From: Aliarcobacter thereius LMG 24486
GTDB lineage: Bacteria > Campylobacterota > Campylobacteria > Campylobacterales > Arcobacteraceae
DNA length: 64,000 nucleotides
NCBI RefSeq assembly: GCF_004214815.1
Contig: NZ_CP035926.1
Coordinates: forward strand, 62,001-126,000
Direction of reading: 5' to 3'
Numbering within the stretch: position 1 is the stretch's first letter; each line of letters starts with the position of its first letter. Positions 31,221 through 49,675 of the stretch are shown here, in pieces. Both the position numbers and the translations under genes were made by a program. The notes under the pieces are model-generated. The model ran no database searches. It was not told where the DNA came from and was given only the letters and a program-made list of their open reading frames with translations.

Positions 31221-32836
31221 TACTTAGCTTTATTTGCTTCTTTTACAAAATCTAAAATTATTGGATTTGGAGTTTCAAGATGAGAAGTAAACTCAGGATG
31301 GAATTGAACTCCTACAAACCAAGGGTGGTCTTTTATTTCAATAGCTTCAATAAGACCATTTGATTCACCACTTACAATCATTCCAGCTTTTTCTAAAACC
31401 TCTTTATATTTTGGGTTTGCTTCGTATCTATGTCTATGTCTTTCAAAGTACTCTTTATTGTTTCCATAAGCTTTTTGAAGTTTAGAACCTTTTAGTGGTT
31501 CAAATGGATACTCTCCTAATCTCATAGTTCCACCAAGTGGAGATTTACTTGTTCTTAATTGTTTATGTCCACTTTGGTCTATAAATTCGTCAATTAAATA
31601 AATTAGAGGATTTGAAGTATTTTCATCAAATTCAATAGAGTTTGCATCTTCAAGTCCAAGAACATTTCTAGCAAATTCAATAATACTTAGTTGCATACCA
31701 AGACAAATTCCTAAAAATGTAATTTTATTTTCTCTTGCATATTTAATTGCATCAAGTTTACCTTTTACTCCTCTTGGACCAAATCCACCAGCAACTAAAA
31801 TTCCATCTACATTTCCAAGAACTTCATAAACACCTAAATCTTCGATTCTTTCGCTATCACACCAATGAATATTCATTTTTGTATTTAAATGAGCTCCTGC
31901 ATGAATTAAAGATTCAACTAAAGATTTATAAGACTCTTTAAGTTCCATATATTTACCAACAATAGCAATAGTAACTTGATCCTGAGGAACTAAGATGTTT
32001 TTAACAAGTCTATCCCATTTTTCCATATTTGGTTTGATTTTTACATTGAAATGGTCAGATAAAGGATTTAAAATTCCTTCTTTTATAAAATGAAGAGGAA
32101 CTTGATAAATAGATTGTGCATCACCAGCTTCAATAACAGCATTTCTATCAATATCACAAGCAAGTGCAAGCTTCTCTTTTAAAGCTTTTGGGAGTTCTTG
32201 TTCTGTTCTACAAACTAACATATGAGGAGTAATCCCAATTCTTCTTAACTCTTGAACAGAGTGTTGAGTTGGTTTTGTTTTTAATTCACCTGCTGCTTTT
32301 ATAAATGGAACTAAACTTACATGAATATTCATAGTATTTGCTTTTGGAAGTTCATGTCTAATTGATCTAATAGCTTCTAGAAAAGGTAAACTTTCGATAT
32401 CTCCAACAGTTCCACCAATTTCAATAATTAAAAATTCATTATCATCAGCTGCTGCAAATATTCTATCTTTAATTTCATCAACAACGTGAGGAATTACTTG
32501 GATTGTTTTACCAAGGTAACCACCTTCTCTTTCTCTTTTTATAACACTTTGATATACTTGTCCTGTTGTAAAACTATTGATTTTTGTTAAAGTTCTATCT
32601 ATAAATCTTTCATAATTTCCTAAGTCAAGGTCAGTTTCAGCACCATCAGCAGTTACAAAAACTTCTCCATGCTCTAGTGGACTCATTGTTCCTGGGTCTA
32701 CATTTAAATATGGATCTATTTTTAACATACTAACTTTGAATCCAGATTGTTTTAATATTGTTGCAATCGAAGCAGAAGTGATACCTTTTCCTAAAGAACT
32801 AAGCACTCCACCAGTTACAAATATAAATTTTGTCAT
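31220..32836 (-). CDS. pyrG: CTP synthase
   Basis: 538 residues. Synthetase domain 1-265 ([17 protein letters not shown] at the start; [11 protein letters not shown]) and class I glutamine amidotransferase domain with the nucleophile in [10 protein letters not shown] and the HPEFTS pair near the C-terminus. It aminates UTP to CTP using glutamine. Intact catalytic triad, unlike the CarA in this window. Confidence 0.97.
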
Positions 32837-46777: not shown

Positions 46778-48028
46778 ATGAAAGCAGATGTAATTGTAGG
46801 AATCCAATGGGGAGATGAAGGAAAAGGTAAAATCGTAGATATGCTTGCTCAAAAGTATGATATGGTTTGTAGAAGCCAAGGTGGACACAATGCAGGACAT
46901 ACAATTTGGGTTGATGGAGTAAAATATGTACTTCAATTAATTCCATCAGGAATCTTAAATCCAAAATCAGTAAATGTTATTGGAAACGGAGTTGTTGTAT
47001 CTCCTGAGAATATATTAAGAGAGATGAGTCAATTTGGTAGTTTAGTAGGAAGATTATATATATCTGATAAAGCTCATCTAAATTTAGCTTTTCATGCACA
47101 AATTGATCAAGCAAAAGAGAAACTAAAAGGTGATAAAGCTATTGGAACAACTGGAAAAGGGATTGGACCTACATATGCAGAGAAAGTTAGTAGAACAGGA
47201 TTTAGAGTAGGTGAACTTTTAAATCCAGCTAAACTTTGTGAAGATATTATAAGTTACTTTGAGCAAAATAGAGCAATCTTTGATATATTACAAATAGCTA
47301 CACCAGATAAAGAAGCTCTTTTAAATGAATTAAAATCTTATAAAGAAAAACTTTCTTCATATATTGTAAATACAACAAATATGGTTTGGAAAGCACTTGA
47401 AGAGAATAAAAGAGTTTTATTAGAAGGTGCACAAGGAACACTTTTAGATATAGACCATGGAACTTATCCATATGTTACATCTTCAAGTACAGTTACAGGT
47501 GGAGCTTGTACAGGGCTTGGTTTAAATCCAAAAGATATTGGTGAAGTTATTGGAATTGTAAAAGCATATTGTACAAGAGTTGGAAATGGACCATTCCCAA
47601 CAGAAGATTTCACACAAGCTGGAATAACAATGGGTGAAGTTGGAAAAGAGTTTGGAGCAATTACAGGAAGAAAAAGAAGATGTGGTTGGTTTGATGCTGT
47701 TTCTGTAAGATATGCAAGTAGATTAAATGGTTGTGATAAATTAGCACTTATGAAACTTGATGTTCTTGATGGATTTGAAAAAATTAAAGTGTGTGTATCA
47801 TATATTCATAATGGAGAGAAAATCAATTATATGCCATCTGATATGGATAATGTAGAAGCAGTTTATGAAGAGATTGATGGTTGGGACAGCGTTGTTGGTA
47901 TTAGAAAATATGAAGACTTACCAATAAATGCAAAGAAATTTATAGAGAAGATTGAAGAAATTACAAATGTAAAAGTTGGGATAATCTCAACTTCACCTGA
48001 ACGAGATGATACTATTATAAGGGGCTAA
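46778..48028 (+). CDS. purA: adenylosuccinate synthetase
   Basis: 416 residues. GTP-binding N-terminus [23 protein letters not shown], and the [13 protein letters not shown] signature are intact. It makes adenylosuccinate from IMP and aspartate. ATG 46778 gives the canonical [17 protein letters not shown] start; the TTG at 46760 within the preceding stop region is not needed. Confidence 0.97.
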
Positions 48029-48029
48029 A

Positions 48030-48581
48030 ATGAGATTAAGAGTACACCATACATCTTATATTGCAAGAAGGATTACAAGAGATTTAACAGCTTGTAGCTT
48101 TGTTGAAGTAAGAAGAAATAAAGCAAGTATCGAAGAGCAAATAGAGAGAATTTTAGATGAAGATATTGAAAAAGAAGCAGCTTTAAATGAAAAAGTTGAA
48201 GAGATTTTAGATAATCAAGAAGATGAAATTGAGTATTTAAATGCTGATAGAAGGCAACTTTTTTGGATGACTAAAAAAAGGCTTGCAAATGATTTTGGAG
48301 TAATTCTGAATAATGAAGATAGATTTTCAGATATTGCTCACAAAATTATTGATTTTTTATGGGAGGAGGACTATATTCACTTTACATGTTCGGACAACCA
48401 AGTAAAAAATGTTATATTTGGTTCGATGGATGATTTTATAAAAGGGTTTGAAAGAGCAGATAGTGAGGTTTTAAGTAAACTTAAAAACTACAAAAGAAAA
48501 TTAATTCCTGGGACTGATGACTATGATATGGTTTATCATAGGCTTTACGAAGAGGAGCTAATTAAAAGAGGATTAATCTAA
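48030..48581 (+). CDS. DUF507 protein
   Basis: 183 residues, acidic and helical, with two DUF507-like segments (MRLRVHHTSYIARRITRDL at the N-terminus; DFGVILNNEDRFSDIAHKIIDFLW in the second half). Function unknown. It is one base after purA and overlaps carA by one base; the DUF507-carA pair is kept in Campylobacter relatives. Confidence 0.85.
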   Translation: MRLRVHHTSYIARRITRDLTACSFVEVRRNKASIEEQIERILDEDIEKEAALNEKVEEILDNQEDEIEYLNADRRQLFWMTKKRLANDFGVILNNEDRFSDIAHKIIDFLWEEDYIHFTCSDNQVKNVIFGSMDDFIKGFERADSEVLSKLKNYKRKLIPGTDDYDMVYHRLYEEELIKRGLI

Positions 48582-49675
48582 TGCAAAAAATTTATATATA
48601 TTTAGAAAATGGTATTTTTTTAGAAGCGAAATCATTTGGTGCAAGTAAAACTGCTATTGGTAAATTAGTTTATAATAATACAACATTTGGATATGAAGAT
48701 ACAATAACTGATCCATCAAATTCAGGTCTTTTTGTAAACTTTACAACAGTAGAGATAGGAAATAGTGGTATAAATGATGCAGATATGGAAAGTTCAAAAG
48801 CACAAGTTGCTGGAGTTATTGCAAGAACATATCATGATAGCTATTCAAATTATAGAGCAGATAAAAGTTTAGCACAATTTTTAAAAGAACAAAATATCCT
48901 TGGAATCTGCGAAATTGATACAAGATTTTTAACAAAAGTAGTAAGAGAAGAAGGTTCAATGATGATGATAGCTTCAACAGAAGTTTCATCTAAAGATGAA
49001 CTGAAAGAACTTTTACAAGAATCAAAAAGTTATAATGAAATTAATTTTATAAGAGAATTATCTACAAAAGAGGCTTATATTCATAAAACAGGGGCTTGGA
49101 ATAGTCAAACTCAAGAGTATAATAAAGCAAGTATGAGCGATAAAAAAGTTTTAGTAGTAGATTTTGGAGTTAAAAAATCATTTTTAAATGAACTAGTAGA
49201 GTCTGGTCTTGAAGTTGAAGTTGTACCATATAATATAAAAAGTGAAGAGATAGTAAAAAGATTTAATGATAAAAATATTGGTGGTGTTGTTTTAAGTTCA
49301 GGTGCAGGTAATCCAAATATTTATAAAGAAGAAATAAGTGGAGTTAAGTCATTAATTAGTGCAAATATTCCAATGTTTGCAGTTGGTTTAGGACATTTTA
49401 TTTTAGCATTAGCAAATGATTTAAAAGTTGAAGAGCTAAAAACAGTGAAATCTGGAAGTCATCCAGTTTTATCAGACAAAAATGTAGATATTTTTTCTAT
49501 GAATACAGCTTATAAAGTAGAAGTAAATAACAATATTTTTGAAGCTACACATAGTAAGCTATTTAATGATGAAGTAGTTGCATTTAAATATAAAAATAAA
49601 AATATTTTAAGTTGTGAATTTACACCTATTTCAGGTTCTAAAATTTATAAAGATTTTTTATCTTTAGTAAAATAA
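48581..49675 (+). CDS. carA: carbamoyl-phosphate synthase small subunit, glutaminase active site lost
   Basis: 364 residues aligning with CarA throughout: N-terminal CPSase_sm_chain domain (1-130, with GICEIDTRFLTKVVREEGSM) and a GATase I domain (~160-360). The elbow normally reading GICLGHQ is FAVGLGHF here, putting Gly269 where E. coli has the nucleophile Cys269 and Phe273 where it has Gln. The C-terminal HPEAS is replaced by CEFTPIS (Phe347/Pro349). Ammonia release from glutamine is therefore not expected. It may be a scaffold for CarB using free ammonia, or a second intact CarA exists. Confidence 0.85.
   Translation: MQKIYIYLENGIFLEAKSFGASKTAIGKLVYNNTTFGYEDTITDPSNSGLFVNFTTVEIGNSGINDADMESSKAQVAGVIARTYHDSYSNYRADKSLAQFLKEQNILGICEIDTRFLTKVVREEGSMMMIASTEVSSKDELKELLQESKSYNEINFIRELSTKEAYIHKTGAWNSQTQEYNKASMSDKKVLVVDFGVKKSFLNELVESGLEVEVVPYNIKSEEIVKRFNDKNIGGVVLSSGAGNPNIYKEEISGVKSLISANIPMFAVGLGHFILALANDLKVEELKTVKSGSHPVLSDKNVDIFSMNTAYKVEVNNNIFEATHSKLFNDEVVAFKYKNKNILSCEFTPISGSKIYKDFLSLVK

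Follow-up and report, generated by a model that had tools for sequence, protein, structure and literature searches.

A carbamoyl-phosphate synthetase small subunit without its glutaminase residues, and a probable ammonia-dependent enzyme, in Aliarcobacter-type species

What does a carbamoyl-phosphate synthetase (CPS) small subunit do for the cell when it no longer has the residues that hydrolyse glutamine? The question is raised by the carA gene in a 64,000-nt stretch of the Aliarcobacter thereius genome (hereafter the window; a contig coordinate minus 62000 gives the window coordinate, and G000 denotes the genome of the window). An initial annotation of this DNA described a CarA along its full length, in the position next to a DUF507 gene, with the whole glutaminase triad lost in a domain that is not frameshifted. 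The features concerned are listed in Table 1.

Table 1. Positions of carA, its neighbours and its altered residues in the window, with the intact glutaminase domain of PyrG
Feature	Coordinates	Strand	Remarks
PyrG glutaminase domain, GICLGMQ and FHPE intact	about 31244..31942	-	G000:C1:93244-93942
purA (adenylosuccinate synthetase), upstream of DUF507	46778..48028	+	start provisional
DUF507 gene (PF04368), upstream of carA	48030..48581	+	profile match
carA CDS, catalytically dead CPS small subunit, 364 aa	48581..49675	+	ATG start, no internal stop; Pfam and residue alignment
CPSase_sm_chain N-terminal domain (PF00988, residues 7-129, 130 bits)	48599..48967	+	
Pseudo-glutaminase domain (PF00117, residues 191-347, 69.5 bits)	49151..49621	+	
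SGAGNP (residues 240-245) in place of the NGPGDP loop	49298..49315	+	N240 and P242 in 82/82 other CarA
GGT, Gly269 replacing nucleophile Cys269	49385..49387	+	Gly in 13/13 of clade, Cys in 82/82 others
TTT, Phe273 replacing Gln273	49397..49399	+	clade: Tyr 10, Phe 2, Gln 1 (n=13)
HGGNHP shortened by one residue to S-GSHP, at E. coli G292/G293	49451..49456	+	
Thr348-Pro349-Ile350-Ser351 replacing His353-Pro-Glu355-Ala	49622..49633	+	Pro349 aligned to Pro of HPE
Deletion junction: residues equivalent to E. coli 357-362 (including G359-P360) gone	49633..49634	+	

The identity and the neighbourhood of the gene are as first described. Both Pfam domains are matched in the open reading frame, in the order PF00988 then PF00117 that is expected of CarA, and the PF00988 part would be the one that docks onto CarB. 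The DUF507 stop codon and the carA ATG share one base, the last of the former and the first of the latter, and a DUF507-like gene likewise ends on carA base 1 in all 13 loci of the clade described below, the PF04368 profile having been run on the window only. The genome, a single contig of 1.915 Mb, encodes one CarA only. A search for a second copy, which the initial annotation had proposed as a check, found none with Cys or otherwise in the genome at E<=10, and the sole other match is a 29% stretch inside GuaA. The carA and carB genes are separate and far apart on the contig (C1:110581 and C1:1217827).

Positions C269, Q273, H353 and E355, in the numbering of E. coli CarA, were scored. Residues were read in 91 of 97 CarA matches; G045, G050 and G061 (all three partial), G046, G083 and G096 were left out. 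All 82 CarA inspected in the rest of the phylum, which include G145, G143, G212 and G113 from outside the 97 matches, have C, Q, H and E at the four positions. The catalytic Cys, His and Glu are replaced in the CarA of the window by Gly269, Thr348 and Ile350. The reported loss of the C-terminal His-x-Glu thus stands, since neither register has a His or a Glu, but the residues originally named, Phe347 and Pro349, are off by one. The Gly269 and Phe273 codons read as reported, and the PyrG encoded in the same window has its motifs intact, as was also noted.

The same losses are found in relatives. Among 31 genomes of the genus, 13, that of the window included, have a single dead CarA, 17 have an intact one, and one, a genome that is 54% complete, has no match; residues were read in all 30 CarA of the genus. 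Members of the dead-CarA clade include Arcobacter vandammei (G013), Aliarcobacter vitoriensis (G027), A. cryaerophilus gv. crypticus (G023) and an uncultured Aliarcobacter MAG (G005), and each clade genome encodes one CarA and one CarB. The position of H353 is occupied in the clade by T, S or N (11, 1 and 1 of 13) and that of E355 by I, V, T or P (6, 3, 3 and 1 of 13). Phe273 is the state of the window species, Tyr273 that of most clade members, and Gln is kept by the earliest-branching G005, in which the NGPGDP loop reads DGAGNP. A sequencing error or a pseudogene is ruled out, since these losses recur in the genomes of 13 species, all with an open frame.

In a phylum-wide sample of 200 genomes, the cut-off of TIGR01368, the model of the glutamine-hydrolysing subunit, is exceeded in 188. 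Six of the 12 genomes below the cut-off belong to the dead-CarA clade (best E about 1e-80). The other six, G068, G142, G158, G222, G245 and G253, have best E values of 1e-44 to 1e-15, and a full CarA was not found in them. In a CarA tree of 51 rows the 13 clade members group together with support of 100/100 and are nested within their own family (98/85). The stem of the clade, at 0.93 changes per site, is the longest inner branch save that to E. coli. The gene tree does not join the clade to the rest of the genus, and its point of attachment within the family is uncertain. A horizontal replacement of carA is unsupported, the clade lying inside the CarA of its family and behind the same upstream gene.

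In addition to the catalytic residues, one short segment and one single residue are gone. The equivalents of E. coli residues 357-362 are deleted in all 13 clade CarA, and this segment includes G359-P360, which we take to line the ammonia tunnel of the E. coli enzyme. The structure of the G359F mutant, 1m6v, appears among the structure matches of the predicted CarA model. The second deletion, in HGGNHP, alters the old route at the same place as in human CPS1, where the position of E. coli Gly293 is replaced and the old tunnel is blocked (PMC4655335). The deletion is therefore suggestive with regard to the ammonia route, as the blocked CPS1 site adjoins it.

The predicted structure, which is weak in the region of residues 289-331 (means over ten residues of 45, 38, 61 and 57), matches E. 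coli CarA with a Z of 35.8 (rmsd 3.4, 341 aligned), the C269S mutant structure 1c30 with a Z of 35.4 and human CPS1 with a Z of 30.2 (rmsd 3.2, 316 aligned). Thus, as modelled, the dead domain keeps the glutaminase fold.

Judged from sequence, the 13 Aliarcobacter-type species probably run an ammonia-dependent CPS in which CarA is a structural pseudo-glutaminase. CarB, with both ATP-grasp sites kept, would use bicarbonate, free NH3 and two ATP to make carbamoyl phosphate, and the product would feed the pyrimidine and arginine pathways. CarA would no longer hydrolyse glutamine. It would remain attached to CarB by way of the N-terminal domain and may be retained for a structural role, possibly that of a gate. 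The path that once led from the glutaminase site appears to be dismantled, and NH3 may enter elsewhere, as has been proposed for human CPS I. An ammonia-run CPS is probable because CarA is under selection without the glutamine-splitting machinery. The initial annotation had offered three options, an ammonia-dependent CarB, an allosteric or structural role for CarA, and a different glutaminase partner; the first, combined with the second, appears best supported, and the third is weakened. The clade-wide loss, the deleted loop near the ammonia route and the change in CarB, outside the window, go beyond what was described there.

This reading calls for a complete partner enzyme and for a use of its product. 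CarB is full length with all of its Pfam domains and intact synthase sites. Nineteen of its catalytic or gate positions are unchanged in all 13 clade members (129, 169, 208, 215, 232, 243, 251, 285, 299, 301, 303, 306, 314, 715, 761, 829, 841, 843 and 845), and five other listed positions, 210, 262, 263, 266 and 352, differ in the clade. The gate positions among the 19 follow PMC4655335, and the others are presumed to be catalytic. Two PF02729 proteins are present in each of the 13 clade genomes, and carbamoyl phosphate is therefore still needed; by family the pair would be aspartate and ornithine carbamoyltransferase, the two not being distinguished from each other. No carbamate kinase scored above the curated cut-off in 60 genomes, among them all 13 of the clade.

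As to the source of ammonia, a functional urease and nitrate reduction to ammonia are reported for A. butzleri (PMC2147049), so that members of the genus could plausibly generate ammonia internally. One ammonium transporter (PF00909) is found in 10 of the 13 clade genomes and none in the other three, which include the window genome; the 16 sister-group genomes counted have 1-4 each (G017, the seventeenth, was left out). The smaller number in the clade is suggestive only as a niche marker, and a constant excess of ammonia is not evident, because 10 clade genomes keep a transporter. According to PMC5438104, insertions in carA of Campylobacter jejuni strongly impair growth in defined medium, and colonisation of mice is attenuated by insertions in carAB.

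Relatives were aligned and dN/dS calculated, both of which had been suggested as checks, and the loss proves to be clade-wide and under purifying selection. The pooled dN/dS of the dead GATase domain is 0.184 (bootstrap 0.141-0.235; five close pairs with separate branches, 888 codons), in agreement with the view that the domain is selected for something other than hydrolysis. In the pair G000-G009 the GATase domain has a value of 0.145, the N-terminal domain 0.108 and CarB 0.071, while four close pairs with an intact CarA range from 0 to 0.086 in the GATase domain. Thus the constraint on the dead domain is real but looser than that on the live enzyme. The most distant clade pair tried, G005-G000, gives 0.48 with dS near saturation. 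Mean identity within the clade is 77% for the N-terminal domain, 66% for the GATase domain and 92% for CarB, versus 94%, 93% and 93% in the congeneric sister group, from which it follows that CarA, and not CarB, changed pace. The long stem and the later constraint fit a burst of change after the loss of catalysis, followed by renewed constraint.

A rapid pace and a loosened domain would also be expected if CarB alone sufficed on NH3 and the dead subunit were on its way out, and in other lineages CarA has indeed been lost or broken beside an intact CarB. Three genomes of family f10, each with a full-length CarB and two PF02729 proteins, display different degrees of loss. G158 (2 contigs) encodes a clean 148-aa CarA that consists of the N-terminal domain alone (L186, 1486-1932); it follows a DUF507-like gene, and an unrelated gene starts six bases past its stop. 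G245 (1 contig) has a carA pseudogene after an intact DUF507-like gene, with the full-length CarB elsewhere; the remnant (L188, L228) is an N-terminal domain with several stops, and the GATase part was not found nearby. In G222 (2 contigs) there is no PF00988 match. Therefore the glutaminase arm was lost here independently of Aliarcobacter, and G222 and G245 may share one CarA loss. As an account of the Aliarcobacter clade, decay of the kind seen in G222 and G245 is nevertheless unlikely. The frame is open, with no stop, in 13 of 13 species whose CarA differ by up to 39% from that of the window, the upper bound of the dead-domain dN/dS is 0.235, and 50 of 178 columns of the domain are invariant within the clade.

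A full-length CarB without a detected CarA also occurs in G062, G068 and G142. These assemblies consist of about 70, 70 and 30 contigs, and their CarB sequences have none of the changes described below, so that an assembly gap is possible.

The constraint on the domain might instead reflect a sensor that binds glutamine or another ligand uncleaved and thereby tunes an NH3-dependent CarB. CarA residues S47, G241, G243, L270 and N311, which we assume to be positions of the glutamine pocket, are kept in all 13 clade members, so the pocket may still bind something, and the stretches GAGNP, GLGH and GSHP are invariant in the clade. However, Gln273 and positions 312-313 of the pocket region are replaced and variable, no ligand is indicated, and a plain structural role explains the constraint equally well. 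A sensor is thus rather improbable, although it and the slow relic are the chief rivals of the ammonia-dependent reading.

Supply of CarB by another glutaminase, through CarA or in its stead, is more improbable still. The genome encodes six PF00117 proteins, CarA included, and the other five, all class-I amidotransferases, keep the nucleophile and HPE motifs; one is a stand-alone protein of the TrpG/PabA type. By eye, however, these five resemble enzymes of their own pathways, namely TrpG/PabA, GuaA, PyrG, HisH and PurQ. The number of PF00117 proteins, a count of class-I enzymes only, is 6-7 in nine clade genomes versus 7-9 in six sister genomes, which argues against a gain of a class-I glutaminase, and the loop beside the old site is deleted. 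Cleavage of glutamine by CarA itself with another nucleophile has the kept fold in its favour and nothing beyond, and can practically be dismissed, given that nucleophile, His and Glu are all replaced, the last two by varying residues and the first by Gly in all 13 species.

The sequence of CarB was compared between the clade and 72 other Campylobacterota, in 71 of which CarA is intact by residue, G045 having a partial match. Left out of the count were G048 and G059 (broken frames of 681 and 614 aa), G011, G061, G063, G064, G067, G074, G078, G083 and G096 (partial or split CarB matches) and G050. Among the 72, 398 positions of E. coli CarB are invariant, and at eight of these (118, 220, 230, 262, 278, 279, 323 and 540) twelve or more of the 13 clade members depart from the invariant residue. 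Each of the eight is also changed in G222, G245 or both (six sites per genome), and at five, 220, 230, 278, 279 and 323, the residue there matches that of the clade. The expected overlap is 1.0 and the observed is 8 (hypergeometric p 3.7e-8). In a leave-one-out analysis over the 72 CarB, one of 54 departures falls at a site of this kind. In a control with 17 groups, 7 of 23 group-specific CarB changes overlap, versus 8 of 8 in the clade (Fisher p 8e-4). Five of the seven control overlaps come from a single family, f14, which has an intact CarA, and part of the overlap is thus due to looseness of the sites. G158, with its truncated CarA, has none of the eight changes, and the same holds for G062, G068 and G142. 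G222 and G245 lie far from the clade and nearest to G143, a member of the genus to which both belong and one that has CarA; a transfer is therefore unlikely.

Seven of the eight sites lie within E. coli residues 118-323, a stretch that also holds what we take to be the gate residues of E. coli CarB, C232, A251 and A314. The gate is named, in CPS1 numbering, in PMC4655335. At the eight sites human CPS1, compared by eye and with no glutamine-using animal CPS alongside, differs at some and is the same at others. It may be, and we offer this tentatively as something short of an even chance, that an ammonia-only enzyme arose from CPS II on more than one occasion in bacteria, that the Aliarcobacter pseudo-enzyme, kept by selection, seals or gates CarB, and that the loss of a glutaminase can be recognised in CarB by the eight-site mark. 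If so, the pattern could be used to find other ammonia-only bacterial CPSs from sequence.

In G073 and G090, both of family f14, ten otherwise invariant CarB positions are changed in both genomes, and the catalytic residues of CarA are all present. Five of these ten changes are also found in CarA-less genomes.

Several known systems bear a likeness to the clade enzyme. It shares with E. coli CarA the two full-length domains, the predicted fold, a separate CarB and the use of one CPS for two pathways; unlike that CPS II, it has no Cys-His-Glu triad, no Gln273 in most members and no residues 357-362. Cys269 mutants of E. coli CarA, and E. coli CarB on its own, represent a loss of glutamine use engineered in the laboratory, of which the clade would be the natural counterpart; a Gly269 mutant of E. 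coli CarA has reportedly been made and used NH3. CPS III of Oreochromis Alcolapia, an enzyme of the fish ornithine-urea cycle, is likewise said to have shifted to ammonia (PMC7657897), a convergent move away from glutamine.

The likeness to vertebrate CPS I is that an inactive glutaminase-like domain is kept, as indicated in the clade by sequence and predicted fold; human CPS1 works with such a domain (PMC4655335). The differences are that the subunits of the clade are separate and do not form one chain, that their role is biosynthetic, and that the clade CarA falls among those of the bacterial family to which it belongs. Also, in human CPS1 a Ser in the nucleophile position accounts for the inactivity, whereas nucleophile, His and Glu are all lost in the clade. 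The best reading, by analogy, is that the clade CPS may have reached the ammonia mode in parallel to vertebrate CPS I. In reviews (PMC6022934 and PMC4655335) the CPS of bacteria is presented as dependent on glutamine, and dependence on ammonia is ascribed to CPS I of mitochondria. In the open-licence PMC literature no account of a bacterial CarA that has lost its catalytic residues was found. The combination in a bacterial group would thus be new, the parts (CarA and CarB) and the mode (CPS I) being already known. Intact, truncated, decayed and absent CarA among relatives form a natural series in which to ask how a glutamine enzyme turns into an ammonia enzyme and which purpose the dead domain serves.

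The CarA of the window scores 272.5 bits against TIGR01368, below the cut-off of 307.35, and 254 bits against NF009475, which it passes (cut-off 221). Automatic annotation probably names it a CPS small subunit with no mention of the lost triad. A core enzyme of the genus is thus probably mis-described, because CarA passes an NCBIfam model of the CPS small subunit.

Two further observations concern other members of the phylum. In G253, which is 99% complete, no CarA, CarB or PF02729 protein was found and there is apparently no carbamoyl-phosphate pathway; since CarB and PF02729 are absent too, this genome is uninformative on the loss of CarA. The carB genes of G048 (C25:43958-47194) and G059 (C6:2821-6054), two genomes of the same family, each contain one in-frame TAA.
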